IMG/VR virus record: IMGVR_UViG_3300035035_000128
Location: 1 to 24,300 of that record
Source: a virus
Length of the DNA stretch: 24,300 nt
Strand: one strand, 5' to 3'
This document shows, piece after piece, positions 16,207 to 23,581 of this stretch. Within the stretch, counting starts at the first letter, position 1. Every line of letters starts with the position of its first letter. Both the position numbers and the translations under genes were made by a program. The notes under the pieces were generated by a model, which worked only from the letters and a program-made list of their open reading frames with translations, was not told where the DNA came from and searched no databases.

Positions 16207-17147
16207 TTGAATTCACACTCCATCATAATTTGTGTAAGACTTGCCAGAAGATTAATCTCCTGATCAGCAACAAACGCTGCTTTGTATTGATAGTCTGCAA
16301 TGATAAGAACCATAGCAGCAATAGATTGGGATACTAGTTTTGGATATAGGGCATCGTATATCTTACGATACAACGAAGTTACATCGTTGTCAATATTCTG
16401 CGTTACCCACTTCTTAACCTTAGTAAAGTTTTTATGTTTCAATGCATCTAGAAGTTCATCAACCGATGCATCGGAGATGACAGATAGAATGCCTGTATCA
16501 ATCTTACCAGTTGCAGAATATTTTTGCAACTCATTCAAACAGCGTCTCCAATCAGGGAAGAACTTTTGAATAAGTTCAGCAATGACTTTCATTTCAAACT
16601 CAACATTCTCGTAACCAAGAATCTGATTGATACGTTTGAAGAACTGTCCTGCTAGTTGCTGTTTATCTTTACCGCTTACTCCGAAGTCAACGACTGCACA
16701 CCGCGAGTGCAGAGGTTCAATAATTCGGTTCTTGTAATTGCAGGTGAAGATAAAACGACAGTTTTTCTGGAACTCTTCAATGCTTGCGCGGAGAAGGAGT
16801 TGTACATCATTAGTCGTGTTATCCGCCTCATCAATGATAAGAACCTTGTGCTTGCTAGTAGAAGTAAGAGAGACAGTAGAAGCAAACGATTTTGCTTGAT
16901 TGCGAACAGTGTCAAGAAATCTGCCTTCGTCTGACCCATTGATAACATAATAGTCTGCTCCAAGTTCTTCACACAATGCTTTTGCTACAGTGGTCTTTCC
17001 AATACCTGGTGGACCTGACAACAAAAGGTTTGGGATTTCACCATTGTCAAGGAAGGATTGAAAGTTAGTCTTGACATTATCAGTCAGAATACAATCATCA
17101 ATTTTGCGGGGGCGATACTTCTCTACCCACAGGAAATCATTTGCCAT
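16203..17147 (-). CDS. 44: Clamp loader ATPase gp44
   Basis: This 314-residue AAA+ protein starts MANDFLWVEKYRP at 17147; an upstream in-frame ATG at 17168 would lie deeper in the previous gene, so I prefer the internal start. Walker A is SGPPGIGKTT at 44-53, Walker B LIIDEAD at 103-109 and the SRC arginine-finger motif at 148-150, all intact. It forms a 4:1 complex with gp62 and opens the gp45 ring using ATP. Length is close to T4 gp44 (319 aa). Its order (45, oxygenase, 44, accessory block, 62, regA) keeps the T4 order but with insertions. In T4 its translation is repressed by RegA. Confidence 0.95.
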   Translation of the reverse strand: MANDFLWVEKYRPRKIDDCILTDNVKTNFQSFLDNGEIPNLLLSGPPGIGKTTVAKALCEELGADYYVINGSDEGRFLDTVRNQAKSFASTVSLTSTSKHKVLIIDEADNTTNDVQLLLRASIEEFQKNCRFIFTCNYKNRIIEPLHSRCAVVDFGVSGKDKQQLAGQFFKRINQILGYENVEFEMKVIAELIQKFFPDWRRCLNELQKYSATGKIDTGILSVISDASVDELLDALKHKNFTKVKKWVTQNIDNDVTSLYRKIYDALYPKLVSQSIAAMVLIIADYQYKAAFVADQEINLLASLTQIMMECEFK

Positions 17148-17670
17148 CTTCAATAAATTTGGAGTCAATAGTGTGGATGTTATAGTTCACACTGATAATA
17201 GTTTTCCTCGTATCTCCTTTGATAGGAGGTGAACGATGTGGAAAGTGTGCAGGAAATACTACAATATCCCCTTCTTGTGCCTCTGGAGTATAACGCTCCT
17301 TCACATGGGGTATCCAGAATTCAGTTACATGTGGTTCTGGCATCTCCAAATAGTATACCATACTAAAATTAGAAAGTCCATGAGCATGCCACCCATGGGT
17401 ATCTGATTCATAGTATTGCTGATACCATCCATTATACAAGGAGAAATCTCCTAGTGCATAACGTTCATGTAGTTCATGATAAAACTCGGTTAGATTTGAA
17501 TGAAACAATGTAAGATAATGTTTCTCATGCAAATCTAACCCTTCATAATAATCAGTCTTTGCAATCTGGTCTTTACCTTTAACATATTCTTTGCCCTTAG
17601 AATGCTCAATACTTTTCAGTAAAGCACCCTTTATTTCATTGTGAAGAGCAAATCTATGTGTCCAGATCAT
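17137..17670 (-). CDS. 2OG-Fe(II) oxygenase, HxH-type iron site
   Basis: This 177-residue protein has the iron-binding and 2-oxoglutarate motifs of the dioxygenase family: HGWHAHG with His95 and His97, a distal His145 in FPAHFPHRSPP, and Arg155 in GDTRKTIISVNYNI. The first pair is His-x-His rather than the usual His-x-Asp, a variant seen in some family members annotated as putative 2OG-Fe(II) oxygenases. It sits between the clamp gp45 and clamp loader gp44, with short overlaps. It is not a close relative of the oxygenase at 3881-4486. Its substrate is unknown; modification of a replication protein, host protein or nucleic acid are all open. Confidence 0.85.
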   Translation of the reverse strand: MIWTHRFALHNEIKGALLKSIEHSKGKEYVKGKDQIAKTDYYEGLDLHEKHYLTLFHSNLTEFYHELHERYALGDFSLYNGWYQQYYESDTHGWHAHGLSNFSMVYYLEMPEPHVTEFWIPHVKERYTPEAQEGDIVVFPAHFPHRSPPIKGDTRKTIISVNYNIHTIDSKFIEDGK

Positions 17671-18326
17671 GCGTTTGGTTCCAATGCAATCCAGTAACGT
17701 ACGTTTTCTCCTTCAAAGAATGCTACGTTATGCTTACTCACTGTGACTTTATAATCACAAAGGAGAAGTTTCAAGTTCTCAATCTTAAAGCAATAGCAGA
17801 AGTCATCTTTACACTCACCAACTTCCATTGAGAAAGTGTTGGAGGTTTCATTCTTCTTATCGGTAACACACAGTTTCAGCATACCATTCTCACCATACAG
17901 GCACAGGTCAGGAACCTGATATACTGCTGCTGCACGTTGAAGTGACTGAAGTGTTCCTGCTTCAAGAGTAAATTGTACATCCTCAGAAGGCATCTGCAGT
18001 TCTTTATCAGGAGGTTGTACGATCACATCAGGATCAGCATAGAAGAAACGAGTCTTAGAACGACCACTACTATCACTCACAGCAAGATACTGAGAATTAC
18101 TAGTATCAAACTGAGGTTGATCAAACAGACTCAAACAACCTAGGAATGAAGACAGATCGTAGATTGAAATCTGACTATCAAAAGACTCTTGGATCTCAGC
18201 AGTGCTCATAATATTTTTATTGACACTGATAGTGCTGAGTTTACTACCAGGTTTAATAACAATAGACTTATTGATACTGCTGAAGTTCTTCAGAATGTCA
18301 ATAGTCTCTTTAGAAATAACGGTCAT
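17667..18326 (-). CDS. 45: Sliding clamp gp45
   Basis: This 219-residue protein occupies the clamp position just before the clamp loader and has features of the T4-type clamp: MTVISKETIDILKNFSSINKSIVIKPG at the start, an ISIYDLSSFLGCLSLF segment, and alternating beta strands to the end (T4 gp45 is 228 aa). It forms a trimeric ring that holds gp43 on DNA and also activates late transcription. The start overlaps the upstream DUF3310-like gene by four bases, and its end overlaps the oxygenase start by four. No motif is missing as far as this family can be judged by eye. Confidence 0.9.
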   Translation of the reverse strand: MTVISKETIDILKNFSSINKSIVIKPGSKLSTISVNKNIMSTAEIQESFDSQISIYDLSSFLGCLSLFDQPQFDTSNSQYLAVSDSSGRSKTRFFYADPDVIVQPPDKELQMPSEDVQFTLEAGTLQSLQRAAAVYQVPDLCLYGENGMLKLCVTDKKNETSNTFSMEVGECKDDFCYCFKIENLKLLLCDYKVTVSKHNVAFFEGENVRYWIALEPNA

Positions 18327-18601
18327 CGGTTAGGGTAATCTTCGCGGTTGTTAGATTGGTCGCTGAAATGAAGGAGCAGCAAACCATAGTGTAAAATCTT
18401 AATGATGTCACGTCGGGCAGTTCCCTTCTTATCGTAGCGAGAAGCATATTTGAGAATGTTGCTTCTACAAAATGCTTCTGCATCGCCACAGGCATCAATC
18501 AGATCTAGCGTCTGAATTTTATCAGTTGCATAGTGCTGATTGTATGTACCTGCAATGTAGTCACGAAGTTCCTTCAGAAGGGCATCTTCATTATACTTCA
18601 T
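18323..18601 (-). CDS. DUF3310-like protein
   Basis: This 92-residue protein starts MKYNEDALLKELRD at 18601, overlapping the end of the CobS-like gene by 11 bases; a longer frame to 18658 would overlap it by 68 bases and adds a low-complexity Lys/Ile-rich stretch, so I reject it. The central DACGDAEAFCRSNILKYASRYDKKG and DIIKILHYGLLLLHF match the phage family DUF3310, small helical proteins of unknown role often placed among nucleotide and replication genes. It sits between the CobS-like ATPase and the clamp gp45. Confidence 0.8.
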   Translation of the reverse strand: MKYNEDALLKELRDYIAGTYNQHYATDKIQTLDLIDACGDAEAFCRSNILKYASRYDKKGTARRDIIKILHYGLLLLHFSDQSNNREDYPNR

Positions 18602-19676
18602 TATCAAAATTAGAATTCTCTTCTTGATTAGTATAATCCATTTCTTCTCCTGCGTCAACCTTTGTGTACAAATCTAGGAAAGAATTTTTAGTATCGTCAT
18701 CAAAACGATTGACACAACTGGTAACTGCCTTCAAACGATCACCAAAGATCTTGTATGCCTGAGCAATATGAACCAAGCGACGAGTAGTAACGATCTCGTC
18801 TACACCACCATCGTAGAATGTTTTACGGATAGCGTTTGCCCACTTGACTAGGTTATCTGCGAACTCTGTATCGCAACCTACATTGCTGAGGATCTTCTGC
18901 TCAATCTTAGCAGTTGGATAGGATTGCTCAAAAGTGATGGGGAAACGCTCCAAGAACGCTTCGTTGAGTACGTTGGTGCCGATAAAACGTCCATCATCAG
19001 AACCCTTGCCTTTCGTGTTGGCAGTAGCAATAACCGTGAACCCTTCAGTAGGACGGACGTAACGACCGATCTTCTTGAGGAATACACCCTTGCCTTCAAG
19101 TACACTCTGAAGACAAAGAATCTTGTTAGAAGCCAAGTCCAACTCATCAAGGAGAAGAACAGCACCTCGCTCAAGAGCCTCAATGACAGGACCATTATGC
19201 CAAACAGTATCACCATTGACCAAACGGAAACCTCCGAGCAAATCGTCTTCATCAGTTTCAATAGTAATGTTGACACGAATCAGTTCGCGTCCTGCTTTCG
19301 CACATGCTTGCTCAACTGAGAGAGTCTTACCATTTCCAGATAGTCCAGTGATAAACGTTGGATAGAATACTTTAGATTTAATTACTTTATGGAGATCGTT
19401 GAAGTTACCGAAAGGTACATAGGTTTTATCTGTTGCAGGCACCATGCTCACAGTATGAGTTGCAGCAGGTGCTTCATATGCTTGCTCCAATTCTTGAACA
19501 CTAAGGTTCCACTTTCCACGACCTGCTTTATATGCATTCAAACGAGCGCATGCAGTACGATAAGAAAGACCCATCTTACGAGCAACAATCTTTACTTCGT
19601 TAGCGGTTACCTCTTCTCCAAATTTCTTGGTAAGAGCGTTGACAAGTTTTTCAGTTGTTACTGGTGAAGATGGCAT
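18591..19676 (-). CDS. cobS: CobS-like AAA+ ATPase (MoxR group)
   Basis: This 361-residue AAA+ protein has an N-terminal helical part (about 1-70), then Walker A GLSGNGKT at 111-118, a DEDDLLGGF loop at 142-150, Walker B VLLLDELD at 173-180, sensor 1 ATAN at 217-220 and FLERF at 241-245. It is the protein usually annotated in cyanophages as CobS, the ATPase subunit of aerobic cobaltochelatase in the last metal-insertion step of B12. CobS belongs to the MoxR AAA group, which works with VWA proteins; one lies at 21273-23516 in this window. It has its own promoter (19703-19745) almost identical to that of the VWA gene. The cobalamin role is not shown by the sequence, and the large chelatase subunit CobN is absent. 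Confidence 0.93.
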   Translation of the reverse strand: MPSSPVTTEKLVNALTKKFGEEVTANEVKIVARKMGLSYRTACARLNAYKAGRGKWNLSVQELEQAYEAPAATHTVSMVPATDKTYVPFGNFNDLHKVIKSKVFYPTFITGLSGNGKTLSVEQACAKAGRELIRVNITIETDEDDLLGGFRLVNGDTVWHNGPVIEALERGAVLLLDELDLASNKILCLQSVLEGKGVFLKKIGRYVRPTEGFTVIATANTKGKGSDDGRFIGTNVLNEAFLERFPITFEQSYPTAKIEQKILSNVGCDTEFADNLVKWANAIRKTFYDGGVDEIVTTRRLVHIAQAYKIFGDRLKAVTSCVNRFDDDTKNSFLDLYTKVDAGEEMDYTNQEENSNFDNEV

Positions 19677-19702
19677 TGGATTTCCTGTTTGTTTATATAA
19701 TT

Positions 19703-19745
19703 ATTATAGCAGGAAATCTATGTAGGTGCAATAGGGGTGTGACAG
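19703..19745 (-). promoter_or_regulatory. Promoter of the CobS-like gene with CTGTCACAC upstream motif
   Basis: On the minus strand TATAAT (19703-19708) and TTGCAC (19726-19731) are 17 bases apart. CTGTCACAC lies at 19737-19745, 28 bases upstream of the -10 box. The -10 box is followed by AATTATATAAACA. The same arrangement precedes the VWA gene at 23540-23581. A GACAGT/ACTGTC inverted repeat (19741-19758) overlaps the upstream motif and abuts the stop of the glutaredoxin-like gene. Confidence 0.8.
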
Positions 19746-19758
19746 TTATTCTACTGTC
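19741..19758. repeat. GACAGT/ACTGTC inverted repeat
   Basis: Six-base arms are separated by six bases, just after the stop of the glutaredoxin-like gene and overlapping the CTGTCACAC promoter motif. There is no T run on either side, so it is a weak terminator candidate; an operator or attenuating hairpin is equally possible. Confidence 0.4.
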
Positions 19759-19998
19759 TCAAACGAACATACCTTTCTCTTTACAGTAGTTCAGAGTTTC
19801 TTTTAGATCGCCGATATGTTTTGCCCCGATTGACACTTGAGGGTATGGTGTACCTTTTCCAAACTCTGCTTCAAATGCACGTTGAGTAAAGTGTTGATTG
19901 AGTTTGTATTCCAGAAATTCGCCACCTAGTGACTTAAGTAATGATGCAACTCGTTCACACTCCTGACTTCCGTTGCTGTAAATTACTGCTGTGTACAT
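19759..19998 (-). CDS. Glutaredoxin-like protein with unusual active site
   Basis: This 79-residue protein starts MYTAVIYSNGSQECERV at 19998, preceded by GAGGAG; an upstream frame to 20046 lacks a ribosome binding site. It has a thioredoxin-fold outline: strand, active-site loop, EYKLNQHFTQRAFEAEFG, the cis-proline motif TPYPQVSIG and HIGDLKETL, as in small phage glutaredoxins. The usual Cys-x-x-Cys is replaced by Ser-Gln-Glu-Cys, so only one cysteine remains. This would prevent ordinary dithiol reduction and suggests a monothiol or a binding role. It lies close downstream of plastocyanin, separated only by a coiled-coil gene. Confidence 0.82.
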   Translation of the reverse strand: MYTAVIYSNGSQECERVASLLKSLGGEFLEYKLNQHFTQRAFEAEFGKGTPYPQVSIGAKHIGDLKETLNYCKEKGMFV

Positions 19999-20233
19999 CT
20001 GCTCCTCGTGGTAAGTGATCCTTGAACTTATCATGATTACCGTCACCAGGCATTTTACCGTACGCTACATACTGGATTGCCTGCATTGACCCTTCCAATC
20101 TTTTTAGGTCATTTTGATTCTTTACATACTCATCGTATGCACTTTGTAACTCTTGATTCCTACTAGAAAGTTGCATTGTACGATTTGTAAATCGCTGAAT
20201 CAACTGTTCGTAAGATTCTACTTGTTTATTCAA
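19955..20233 (-). CDS. Small coiled-coil protein, start uncertain
   Basis: The likely start is a TTG at 20233, overlapping the plastocyanin stop by 8 bases, giving 92 residues; a longer frame to 20275 would run inside plastocyanin. Residues from about 5 to 50 (KQVESYEQLIQRFTNRTMQLSSRNQELQ in two pieces) form a probable amphipathic coiled coil, followed by a low-complexity Gly/His/Asp/Lys region. The C-terminal end overlaps the start of the glutaredoxin-like gene by 44 bases. I do not recognise the family. Confidence 0.55.
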   Translation of the reverse strand: MNKQVESYEQLIQRFTNRTMQLSSRNQELQSAYDEYVKNQNDLKRLEGSMQAIQYVAYGKMPGDGNHDKFKDHLPRGADVHSSNLQQRKSGV

Positions 20234-20549
20234 CGTGTACAACCCCCACCATACCTGCACCTTGATGAGGACCACAATAGAATTCGTAGTCTCCTACCTC
20301 AGGGAATTGAACATCAAACTCTTCACCAGGCATCATAGCAAGTGCATCATGTGAGAGTTCGTCATGACCATCAACAATAACATTGTGTGGTGGTAGCATG
20401 TTATTTACAAAGTGAACGGAGTCACCTGCGCTAATAGTAATTTCAGATGGTTCAAATACAAGATTACCATCGTAACCCATTTGAACATCAACTGCCCATG
20501 CGGGAGCAGCGAGAAATAGTGTTGCTAAAAAAGTAAATAAAAATTTCAT
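20226..20549 (-). CDS. petE: Plastocyanin
   Basis: This 107-residue precursor starts at 20549 in the TAATG overlap with the previous stop; a longer frame adds six residues before the signal peptide. A signal peptide (MKFLFTFLATLFLAAPAWA, about 19 residues) would direct it to the thylakoid lumen. All four copper ligands of type 1 copper proteins are present: His55 (PPHNV), Cys92, His95 and Met100 in YCGPHQGAGM. Plastocyanin carries electrons from cytochrome b6f to photosystem I. It is a known cyanophage auxiliary gene and here is transcribed with small unknown genes and the VWA protein. The protein is of normal length, with no lost motif. Confidence 0.95.
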   Translation of the reverse strand: MKFLFTFLATLFLAAPAWAVDVQMGYDGNLVFEPSEITISAGDSVHFVNNMLPPHNVIVDGHDELSHDALAMMPGEEFDVQFPEVGDYEFYCGPHQGAGMVGVVHVE

Positions 20550-20863
20550 TAGTCTCTTTGTCTCCAATCGTCTGGTTTGTCTCTATTAAACCATTCATTA
20601 ATATCGTCAGCACCATCAAATCTTGTTTTATGTTTGGATGGGTCAGGGTCTCCGAGTCCCATCCTATTCAGAAAATCATCAGTGCTGCCCTCCTGAATAT
20701 CTTGAGATGCTTGCCGACGTGCTTGACGCAACCATTCGCGAGCAGTGGTATTTGCTTTGGACATTTTTTCTGCCCAAATCATGTCATCCAGAGGAACTTC
20801 TTTTTTGTTTGCGATTTTCTTACAGATACCTTCTAGTCTAAGACGATATGCAGTAGATAGCAT
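20549..20863 (-). CDS. Small soluble protein, 104 aa, unknown
   Basis: This 104-residue protein is charged and mainly helical: MLSTAYRLRLEGICKKIANKKE, then KMSKANTTAREWLRQARRQASQ and a C-terminal GLGDPDPSKHKTRFDG turn and WFNRDKPDDW end. It resembles hypothetical proteins I recall from T4-like cyanophages, but no function is known to me. The stop overlaps the plastocyanin start by one base, and the start lies one base after the upstream stop. No membrane or signal sequence. Confidence 0.75.
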   Translation of the reverse strand: MLSTAYRLRLEGICKKIANKKEVPLDDMIWAEKMSKANTTAREWLRQARRQASQDIQEGSTDDFLNRMGLGDPDPSKHKTRFDGADDINEWFNRDKPDDWRQRD

Positions 20864-20864
20864 T

Positions 20865-21062
20865 TTATTCTTGAGATAGTTTATCAGTCAATTTCGCAAT
20901 CTTATCATATTCTGCTATAGCAGAAGATGCTTTTGCGTTCAGTATGTCTAGAATATCTTCATAGATGATACTGATGTCAACATCATCCTCAAGATAAGTT
21001 TCTAGTGCCTCTTTTAGATATCTCTTACGAGTCCATTGAGGTGAGTATGGTTTGTAATCCAT
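20865..21062 (-). CDS. Small acidic protein, 65 aa, unknown
   Basis: This 65-residue protein starts MDYKPYSPQWTRKRYLKEALETYLEDD and continues with helical, acidic sequence ending DKLSQE. It has no cysteines, membrane segment or known motif. It sits in the VWA-plastocyanin transcription unit, 13 bases after the upstream stop. The function is unknown. Confidence 0.7.
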   Translation of the reverse strand: MDYKPYSPQWTRKRYLKEALETYLEDDVDISIIYEDILDILNAKASSAIAEYDKIAKLTDKLSQE

Positions 21063-21075
21063 GACAATAGTGTGT

Positions 21076-21276
21076 TTACTTTAGAGAGTCAGTCGCAATT
21101 GAATGCTGATCTGATCCTCCGCTCTGTGTGGGTATAGGATACCCTACCATAAAAGCATTCTTAAATGCTTTTCGGAAATTCATACATGCTTGCATTTGAG
21201 TAGCAGCAAAGACATGACCCTTAATGTGTCTGTCTTCGCCTTTATAATAATACTCAAAGTCCCATCGTGTGTTCAT
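21076..21276 (-). CDS. Small protein, 66 aa, unknown
   Basis: This 66-residue protein begins MNTRWDFEYYYKGEDRHIKGHV and has an AATQMQACMNFRKAF helix and a disordered end. The beta-then-helix start resembles small single-domain phage proteins of unknown role. Its start overlaps the VWA gene stop by four bases (ATGA), so it is probably coupled to that gene. No family recognised. Confidence 0.68.
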   Translation of the reverse strand: MNTRWDFEYYYKGEDRHIKGHVFAATQMQACMNFRKAFKNAFMVGYPIPTQSGGSDQHSIATDSLK

Positions 21277-23516
21277 GCAATTTGCTCCACGAATTTATTT
21301 AGGATAACTTTATTAGTCATCTTTGAACCCATGTGCTTTTTGAATGCACGAGTGATTTCTGCTGCAGTAGCATTCTCACCCTTAGATTTTACAGTGATGT
21401 CGTTAGTACCACCGCCAATGTTATTGGATGGGAAGACGTACAACTCAGTGAATCCATATTCTTTAATCGCAGCGAATTTTTGCTTTGACCACTGGTGATC
21501 ATATTCTTTTGCAAGAGTATAATCAAGGTCACGAATAATGGAATGAAGATCACGCTTGTCTCCAATACGGATTCCAATCCAGTTATAGTCAGTGCAACTC
21601 TTGTAGAAATCTACAATTGTTTTTGTGGTCAAAGATGGTTCAGTATCAAGTTTTCTTGAGAAACGAGTCTCAGGATCTCTCAGAATGAACACTTTGTTAT
21701 GGTGATGGCAAAGATAATCAGAGCGGAAATATGTATCATGATCATAATCACTATCACCGTGACGGTATTTATAATTCTCATAAGAAGTCTCACGAGTGAA
21801 ACTTAGAGGGTTTGATTCACCGTCACTCAACATGATGATGTTGACTTTCTCAACCTTCTCAGTAGATTGGAATCTCTTTACGATTTCAGGAGTAACGATA
21901 ACTGCTTCTCCAAGAGGAGTACCGCCGAGACCGTACTTAGCAGGTGTGTGGTATCCGTAGTGTGAATGCATATTCCATACTAGTGCCCAGACAGATGCCA
22001 TCTGTGTCTCTAGTTCTTTCTTCTTCATCTTAGAAGAGAACAATTCAAACAATTCAAAAGATGTATTCAAGGAAAGACCATTATGTTCAATCTTGAATGT
22101 TTCACAACCCATAAGATCCTTACCACCGAATCCGCTGCTGAATGCATACACTCTGAAAGGGATGTTTACTTTCTTACAGAACCAAACAAGATTGTAAGTT
22201 TGCTTGATAGTATCTGTAAGAACAGATCCTGTAGGAGTTCTGTCATTCATAGAACCAGACCAGTCAACATACATGATGAGACCGTGGTTCTTACCATCAG
22301 GAACAATGGTTTGCTTCTTGAAGATATCATCAGTCAACTTATACTTGTACAGAGAGTTAGTGTTAAGAACACCTGTACGAGATACTGCAGCACGAGCATA
22401 TTGTGATGCAGACTTTTTCATTTCAAACTGTTTTACAAGATAGTTAACAGTTTTACCGCTAGACTTCTGAAACTCTGCGTACTTTCTTTCGTTATACTTT
22501 CTCTGCTTTTCATAGTGTGACTTCATATAGTCACTGTCACCTTGACTTTCAGCATACTTTTTCGCTGCATCAAGATCTTCCATTACTTCTTTATATGGAG
22601 TGATGATCTTGTCAAGATAAACTTTAGGAGTGTTAAGATAAACCCACTCCTTAGCACTGTCATCAATCAACTTCTGCTGATTTTCAATAGATGCTAGATC
22701 AGTCTCAGACACCATCTCATCAACTTCGTAACTAGGTACGTCAAGATGAGCAGGATCTTCACCACCAATGTTGCTATCACCTTGTTCTGGTTGTTGCTGT
22801 GGTTCTTGATCTACCTCTTCACCCTCTCCTTTATCTGGAACTGGACTCTCTTCTTTTTCATCAGGAGTCACTTCGTTTGAAGGACTGGACTGAGGATTAA
22901 ACTCAACATCATCTTTGCCATCGTTACCTGCTGTAGGTTGTGGCATTGAAAATGGTACTTCCTTATCTTTCTCTTCTTCTTTTTGCTCTAGATATCCTAC
23001 TAGTTCTTTAGCAAGTTCTACAACATCTTCAAATGTTTCTGTATTAGCAGCACGCTTTACATATACAAGTTCTTCAGGAGTAAACTTGATGAACTCATAA
23101 GAACCAATCTTAAAGTAAAGGTTGATTCTGTCAATGAATGCCATTTTGCTGACATCGTTGCCTTTAGTTCCAAAGAAATCGCGATCGTAGAGTTCGCTGT
23201 AACCTTTGTAGAAGGACTTCTTAAGACCAGGATAGGTCTCTTTCATCATTTTCTCAATACGAGCATCCTCTAGGACGTTGATAAAATCCTTTGGAGCGCC
23301 GCTAAAGTCTGTCAAAGGTGTGTAGAGAGCATGTCCTACCTCATGACCCACTAGAAGGTCGTATACGTCGTTGCTGACATCCTTCCAGATAGGAAGAGCA
23401 AGTACACGCTTCTCAACATCAAAGTATGCAGTAGTAATCTTGCGATGCTCTACTTGAAGGTTCTCAGTAGCGAGCAGTTTTGCAAGTTGACCTTTGACTT
23501 CGGTGTTGACTGTCAT
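21273..23516 (-). CDS. HExxH + VWA (CobT-like) partner of the CobS-like ATPase
   Basis: This 747-residue protein has three parts. The N-terminal part holds HEVGH at 58-62 and, 20 residues on, NVLEDARIEKM (80-90), a zinc-peptidase-like pair with a downstream glutamate. Residues about 180-275 are a very acidic, Pro/Gln-rich linker. The C-terminal part is a von Willebrand A domain with a MIDAS motif DWSGS at 418-422, a Thr at 533 (GGTPLG) and LSDGES at 563-568. CobT has the same order of linker plus VWA, and MoxR/VWA pairs are known chaperone-like systems. The promoter at 23540-23581 is nearly the same as that of the CobS-like gene. Peptidase activity is untested. Confidence 0.88.
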   Translation of the reverse strand: MTVNTEVKGQLAKLLATENLQVEHRKITTAYFDVEKRVLALPIWKDVSNDVYDLLVGHEVGHALYTPLTDFSGAPKDFINVLEDARIEKMMKETYPGLKKSFYKGYSELYDRDFFGTKGNDVSKMAFIDRINLYFKIGSYEFIKFTPEELVYVKRAANTETFEDVVELAKELVGYLEQKEEEKDKEVPFSMPQPTAGNDGKDDVEFNPQSSPSNEVTPDEKEESPVPDKGEGEEVDQEPQQQPEQGDSNIGGEDPAHLDVPSYEVDEMVSETDLASIENQQKLIDDSAKEWVYLNTPKVYLDKIITPYKEVMEDLDAAKKYAESQGDSDYMKSHYEKQRKYNERKYAEFQKSSGKTVNYLVKQFEMKKSASQYARAAVSRTGVLNTNSLYKYKLTDDIFKKQTIVPDGKNHGLIMYVDWSGSMNDRTPTGSVLTDTIKQTYNLVWFCKKVNIPFRVYAFSSGFGGKDLMGCETFKIEHNGLSLNTSFELFELFSSKMKKKELETQMASVWALVWNMHSHYGYHTPAKYGLGGTPLGEAVIVTPEIVKRFQSTEKVEKVNIIMLSDGESNPLSFTRETSYENYKYRHGDSDYDHDTYFRSDYLCHHHNKVFILRDPETRFSRKLDTEPSLTTKTIVDFYKSCTDYNWIGIRIGDKRDLHSIIRDLDYTLAKEYDHQWSKQKFAAIKEYGFTELYVFPSNNIGGGTNDITVKSKGENATAAEITRAFKKHMGSKMTNKVILNKFVEQIA

Positions 23517-23539
23517 TGACTCCCTGTGTTTATATACTT

Positions 23540-23581
23540 ATTATAGCAGAGCATGGCAAGTTTAGCAAGTCAGTGTGACAG
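23540..23581 (-). promoter_or_regulatory. Promoter of the VWA gene with CTGTCACAC upstream motif
   Basis: On the minus strand TATAAT (23540-23545) and TTGCTA (23563-23568) are 17 bases apart, and CTGTCACAC lies at 23573-23581, 27 bases before the -10 box. AAGTATATAAACA follows the -10 box. A GTCACACTGAC palindrome overlaps the upstream motif. GGGAG lies close before the ATG at 23516. Confidence 0.8.

Follow-up and report, generated by a model that had tools for sequence, protein, structure and literature searches.

A MoxR-class CobS-like ATPase and a VWA protein with a predicted zincin-like N-terminal domain as a gene pair of T4-like cyanophages

In marine phages, cobS is commonly classed among the auxiliary metabolic genes for vitamin B12, and the question raised by the locus described here is whether this label suits the gene when its partner is considered with it. 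We have analysed a viral DNA stretch of 24,300 nucleotides (positions 1 to 24,300 of IMG/VR record IMGVR_UViG_3300035035_000128; hereafter the window, whose features given below all lie on the minus strand), which encodes a CobS-like MoxR AAA+ ATPase of 361 amino acids (18591..19676; phrog_249 match, 6e-143) and a CobT-like metallopeptidase-VWA protein of 747 amino acids (21273..23516; phrog_459 'peptidase' match, 4e-288). An earlier note on this DNA had placed the two genes about 1.6 kb apart on one strand; both open reading frames (ORFs) have been confirmed, with 1596 nucleotides between them, and all motifs named in that note (Walker A and B, FLERF, MIDAS, HEVGH and LEDARIE) have been found at the positions it gave. 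The observed AAA+/VWA gene pair with these motifs is well beyond chance. We consider that the pair is probably a MoxR-VWA machine bearing a metallopeptidase-like head and not a cobaltochelatase, acting most likely on a phage or host protein.

The idea of such a phage pair is not new. Pairs of MoxR and metallopeptidase-vWA proteins have been reported in group 2.2 jumbo phages, for which a role in virion assembly was proposed (Iyer 2021, PMC7824862), and the viral cobST cluster, comprising the same two cyanophage core genes as ours, has been described as widespread in tailed viruses, with hijacking of CobN being proposed and the peptidase label being called a mistake (Liu 2021, PMC8651126). New points of the present analysis are the joining of both descriptions, a metal site that is invariant in 40 N-termini yet lost in bacterial CobT, the joint loss of the two genes, and a promoter-like element shared by them.

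Pairing and distribution of the two genes

With tblastn, the number of cyanophage records was the same for either gene (365 Synechococcus, 61 Cyanophage and 24 Prochlorococcus; about 450 records). A concatenated query of the two genes matched them together at one place in 392 phage records; in all, it gave 790 places distributed over 729 records, an excess of 61 places. The pair is thus present in nearly all marine T4-like cyanophages. According to the earlier note, many cyanophages with one gene only would speak against a joint function; no such group turned up, and the pair was kept or lost together. Because the clamp loader gene gp44 was found in 376 Synechococcus records, as compared with 365 for each gene of the pair, about 11 Synechococcus records should lack both. 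Three cluster C phages, S-B68, S-N03 and S-H34, have been reported to lack cobS (PMC10665884), and both genes are indeed missing from their complete genomes, in which the matches to PHROG 249 were no more than fragments of P-loop size.

Both genes lie on one strand in 68 of the 80 IMG/VR loci, and likewise in S-SSM4, DLP6 and Ochrobactrum OC; in the remaining 12 loci, where cobS is absent, the sequence stops 1442 nucleotides or less downstream of the VWA gene. In S-CRM01 the pair has been inverted as a unit and lies on the strand opposite to gp45 and gp44. On the basis of co-occurrence, co-loss, joint inversion and a common promoter-like element (see below), the view that the two genes form a unit is supported. 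The ATPase gene thereby has a genetically linked VWA partner with MIDAS, as MoxR-VWA pairs do. Adjacent pairs were found also in phages of Stenotrophomonas, Ochrobactrum, Pelagibacter, Pseudomonas, Vibrio, Gordonia, Escherichia, Salmonella, Klebsiella and Rhizobium. Scans of IMG/VR with the Ochrobactrum, DLP6, DSL-LC01 and MJW proteins gave zero relatives, and a GTDB scan for close cellular homologues gave 20 loci, several of which are evidently phage contigs in marine assemblies.

We have also examined CobS-like genes of Staphylococcus and Mycobacterium phages as candidates for further pairs and rejected them, because no metallopeptidase-VWA gene is adjacent. In a Staphylococcus Kayvirus (L084:7707-9682) and a Mycobacterium phage (L090:1657-3799), the CobS-like ATPases adjoin a DUF7192 protein of about 280 amino acids, which, judging from its sequence, may represent a VWA partner that has degenerated and lacks a MIDAS. 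A link to anti-phage defence was rejected as well, a PADLOC search having given no match.

Domains of the two proteins and the metal site

Walker A GLSGNGKT (residues 111-118; 19323..19346), Walker B VLLLDE (residues 173-178; 19143..19160), ATANTKG, FLERF and TTRR of the phage CobS are kept across 82 aligned homologues, and the Walker motifs, sensors and Arg finger of the MoxR/CbbQ class are all found in it. Pfam matches were AAA_5 (4e-16) and CbbQ_C (4e-7). Since midasin, CobS, NorQ and CbbQ are its relatives in the PDB, and since it scored only 63.7 bits with the CobS equivalog model TIGR01650, for which the cut-off is 558.55, its sequence marks the protein as an intact MoxR-class ATPase, not a certified CobS. 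Residues 1-60 are variable and not conserved across homologues, and weakly match a helix-turn-helix-like family (DUF2089-HTH, E 0.011).

A Pfam search of the 747-residue protein gave zero matches. Its VWA domain (about residues 410-700; 21417..22289) has been identified because a profile built from ten diverse phage relatives found CobT 9uka_G as the best PDB match (E 2.9e-20, spanning the VWA part), and because a Foldseek search with an AlphaFold2 model (mean pLDDT 76) had the NorD VWA domains of NorQD complexes (9qhe_G, 9qhd_G and 9qh6_G) among its top structure matches. The MIDAS, which the earlier note had called intact, consists of DWSGS (residues 418-422; 22251..22265), Thr533 (21918..21920) and Asp565-Gly566 within LSDGES (21819..21824); these residues, together with those of the metal site described below, are invariant in 52 relatives (the numbering of this alignment is one lower than that of the protein, the first Met being omitted). 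An acidic low-complexity linker of about 77 residues (187-263; 22728..22958) is predicted to be disordered (pLDDT below 50).

Two known systems are close to this architecture. The aerobic cobaltochelatase subunits CobS/CobT (PDB 9uka, 9ujv) are likewise an AAA+ plus VWA-MIDAS gene pair, and CobT shares with the phage protein, besides the VWA domain with MIDAS, a second N-terminal motif ExxRxE; however, the phage protein has an intact HExxH, the CobS and CobT family cut-offs are missed (TIGR01651 and Pfam CobT/CobT_C for the VWA protein), and CobN is absent from the phages tested. NorQ/NorD (PDB 9qhe, 9qhd, 9qh6) also combines a MoxR AAA+ ring with a VWA partner, but functions in inserting FeB into nitric oxide reductase, whereas the phage N-terminal domain is predicted to be zincin-like.

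This N-terminal domain (residues 2-190; 22947..23513) contains HEVGH (residues 58-62; 23331..23345), predicted to supply metal ligands and the catalytic Glu, and EDARIE (residues 83-88, within LEDARIE 82-88; 23253..23270), whose E83 is the predicted third metal ligand. H58, E59, H62, E83, D84 and R86 are unvarying in 40 N-termini, some of which share just 37-41% identity with the window protein, and thus a conserved HExxH with a downstream acidic ligand, as known for zincins, is present. When the domain was modelled alone with AlphaFold2 (pLDDT 91), the twelve best PDB matches in a fold search were ArdC, selecase/jannalysin/abylysin and PprI, all zincins, with weak E-values of 0.03-0.6. Such minimal zincins (ArdC, selecase/jannalysin/abylysin, PprI/IrrE) share the HExxH family character with the phage domain but have no VWA domain, and the sequence identity is low. 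The match of the predicted fold to zincins is weak but consistent. Concerning the earlier proposal that the HExxH part serves as a peptidase or metal site, the invariant site has been borne out, while peptidase activity itself is what we infer from it.

The cyanophage N-terminal profile aligned with a profile of other phage CobT-like proteins (97.3%, 2.4e-11), and the latter aligned with cellular CobT (69%, 4e-5). A direct link between cyanophage and cellular CobT N-termini was not significant in profile comparison and was rejected; it holds only via this bridge, in which EDARIE is aligned with VEQARVE of cellular CobT. The bridging protein, a homologue in Escherichia phage CMS-2020a, scores above the Pfam cut-offs for both CobT and CobT_C while keeping HEVAH and LEDVFIE. 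An unannotated CobT/CobS pair of an Escherichia phage (L087:5617-9053; CP054387) has an intact HExxH and passes the Pfam CobT cut-offs. In the 12 bacterial CobT proteins examined, HExxH is missing in all and VEQARVE is retained. Because HExxH and EDxRIE are conserved, CMS-2020a provides the bridge and bacterial CobT keeps VEQARVE, the labels 'peptidase' and 'CobT' each fit a real part of the VWA protein, and the peptidase label called mistaken in PMC8651126 has a real basis.

The metal site has also decayed among phages: HExxH is replaced by SEISK in the CobT of Pseudomonas phage Nican01 (L085:5445-7526), which represents an independent decay, and Vibrio phage MJW keeps HExxH with a degenerate second motif. 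A MoxR-VWA chaperone whose zincin-like domain binds metal or client without cleavage, as expected for bacterial CobT with its N-terminal domain devoid of HExxH, must be considered here. Since Nican01 and cellular CobT retain the pair after the loss of HExxH, catalysis would be dispensable in relatives, and NorQD uses a VWA protein for metal insertion into a protein (PMC13036017). Nevertheless, the catalytic Glu and both His are invariant in the 40 sequences, even at about 37-41% identity, which suggests selection for catalysis or metal use, and we regard the purely non-cleaving chaperone as somewhat unlikely.

CobN, hosts and genomic surroundings

As the earlier note had pointed out, CobN is absent from the window; it was not found in 13 phage records either, so that CobN is not encoded with CobST there. 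A search across 50,697 phage records gave two CobN matches, neither of them from a cyanophage: one lies in a Pseudomonas phage record that is unverified, the other in a contig of 7 kb. The CobN-like ORF at 16418-19996 of OQ572414.1 belongs to a record named Pseudomonas phage Y13 and marked UNVERIFIED, which is possibly not phage DNA.

Viral CobST might borrow the host CobN to complete an aerobic cobaltochelatase and increase cobalamin or pseudocobalamin, e.g. for ribonucleotide reductase, as proposed in PMC8651126. The host side fits this proposal, because CobN was above the family cut-off in 32 of 41 Prochlorococcus genomes and CobT was found in none of the 61 genomes of the hosts' family, and the VWA part is CobT-like. 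However, the pair occurs in E. coli and Salmonella phages, and the reference E. coli of our control set gave no CobN match; in the control genome Caulobacter vibrioides, CobS and CobT were matched and CobN was not; and no CobN above the cut-off was found in 11 of the 47 Pseudomonadota genomes with CobT, a figure that incomplete assemblies may inflate. From these cases CobN does not appear to be a general requirement of the pair. Furthermore, the CobS score is far below its cut-off, as given above, and the two CobT models gave no match to the VWA protein; we also know of no role in chelation for the invariant HExxH. Borrowing of CobN is, on this evidence, quite unlikely. The earlier suggestion that the pair acts beyond B12 synthesis gains from the absence of phage CobN and from the two genes forming a unit, and is limited by a B12 role that host CobN would allow, since most Prochlorococcus genomes tested carry it. 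CobT without a CobN match was observed in bacterial genomes G120, G128, G187, G227, G235, G255 and G263 and in Caulobacter vibrioides, which suggests that cellular CobST may also act outside cobalt chelation.

The source of the window is a Kyanoviridae T4-like cyanophage near Synechococcus phage S-SSM4, to whose proteins the VWA protein is 96.9% and CobS 98.9% identical. The gene order is gp46 (partial), the VWA gene, three small ORFs, the plastocyanin gene (petE; 20226-20567, between the two genes of interest in the source phage), a glutaredoxin-like ORF and cobS, followed by a DUF3310 protein gene, gp45, a 2OG-Fe(II) oxygenase gene and gp44.

A promoter-like element, CTGTCACAC-N25-TGCTATAATAATTATATAAACA, lies before cobS (19690-19745), and a matching, nearly identical element, CTGTCACAC-N24-TGCTATAATAAGTATATAAACA, lies before the VWA gene (23527-23581). 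The pattern CTGTCACAC-N24/25-TGCTATAATAANTATATAAACA has just these two sites in the window, one immediately upstream of each gene, against 0.01 chance matches expected for the 22-base core. With a relaxed pattern, 82 related loci (1.04 Mb) had 59 sites before cobS, 32 before the VWA gene and one elsewhere; because the pattern was built from these very sites and the loci are related, the ratio of 91/92 at the pair is a measure of specificity, not a probability. As a sequence pattern, the element is almost pair-specific in the related loci. The extended -10 alone is unspecific, being present at 56 further sites, and a classical TTGACA box accompanies many of the listed ones. In the whole S-SSM4 genome, the strict pattern is present only at the two genes of the pair. 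In each of two other cyanophages, one site precedes cobS and a second lies away from the pair. Further sites of the shared element in two phage genomes had no informative gene downstream. The strict pattern is absent from three Prochlorococcus genomes and from the three pair-less cyanophages S-B68, S-N03 and S-H34, and is not kept in some pair-bearing phages (G108, S-CRM01 and HTVC008M).

These surroundings bear on the proposal that the pair is a virion-assembly machine, with structural proteins as the client, which the VWA protein and the AAA+ ring would remodel and the metallopeptidase would process; this overlaps the reading that we favour and differs in the client. The jumbo-phage pair of PMC7824862 has the same layout, a MoxR AAA+ gene with a VWA protein bearing a fused N-terminal metallopeptidase-like domain, and an archaeal virus MoxR-vWA system needed for tail assembly is cited there; the likeness to that pair (ASV44728/ASV44729) is one of layout, and Atu_ph07, used as a stand-in, gave no clear match. 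In addition, Staphylococcus phage fRuSau02 has a distantly related CobS-like ATPase that is annotated as a structural protein. Against this, the Kyanoviridae pair, in cyanophages of about 180 kb, is usually located among replication and recombination genes (gp46/47, gp45 and gp44) and not among structural genes, and the cyanophage core virion proteins named in PMC3037559 are T4-GC 15 and 190, cobS not being named. Control by a T4 late promoter was rejected, because the late-promoter box, a motif not above chance in the window, is missing before both genes, which are preceded by extended -10 elements instead. We consider virion assembly unlikely. Since the pair is placed with replication genes and is preceded by extended -10 elements, we favour action before late assembly.

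A candidate remodelling machine and its meaning

For the reading that we prefer, a MoxR-VWA machine bearing a metallopeptidase-like head, the following mechanism can be drawn. CobS would form an AAA+ ring, on which the CobT-like protein would dock through its VWA domain, as NorD does on NorQ, and the MIDAS, linker and N-terminal domain of the CobT-like protein would engage the client. By analogy with NorQD, for which a finger in the pore and linker twisting provide a mechanistic precedent (PMC13036017), a VWA finger would enter the AAA+ pore, ATP hydrolysis would rotate the VWA domain, and, with the client held, the linker that leads to the N-terminal domain would be stretched. Because the zincin-like site is intact, unlike the decayed site of bacterial CobT, ATP-driven pulling or twisting would most likely be coupled to metal-dependent cleavage or handling of the client, which would be a phage or host protein in replication or takeover and not cobalt insertion into a corrin. 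The pairing, motif conservation, absence of phage CobN and promoter-like elements are observed, whereas the complex, zinc, peptidase activity and client are inferred.

Several points weigh against this view. Co-occurrence within Kyanoviridae is partly due to shared ancestry; the E-values in the fold search of the N-terminal domain are weak; the metal site would be dispensable in some phage pairs, as indicated by MJW and Nican01; and CobN, but not CobT, is found in most Prochlorococcus hosts, so that a chelatase role may hold there.

A more specific form of the preferred machine is put forward tentatively, as a possibility with less than an even chance: the pair may be a phage AAA+ protease of new layout, with a MoxR unfoldase ring, the peptidase in the VWA adaptor and a nearly pair-specific promoter, cleaving a host or phage protein during replication, and bacterial CobT may be a descendant or sister without the peptidase site. 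Mutants of E59, H58/H62, MIDAS D418 and Walker B E178 would separate the chelatase, chaperone and protease models.

Because the second subunit has an intact metal-binding, peptidase-like domain that has been lost in bacterial CobT, the label 'vitamin B12 gene' is probably wrong for the pair. If the pair is truly a protein-remodelling or proteolytic machine, the B12 interpretation would be wrong for a gene that is very common in marine phages, and a testable reason would be provided for the presence of bacterial CobST in genomes without CobN.

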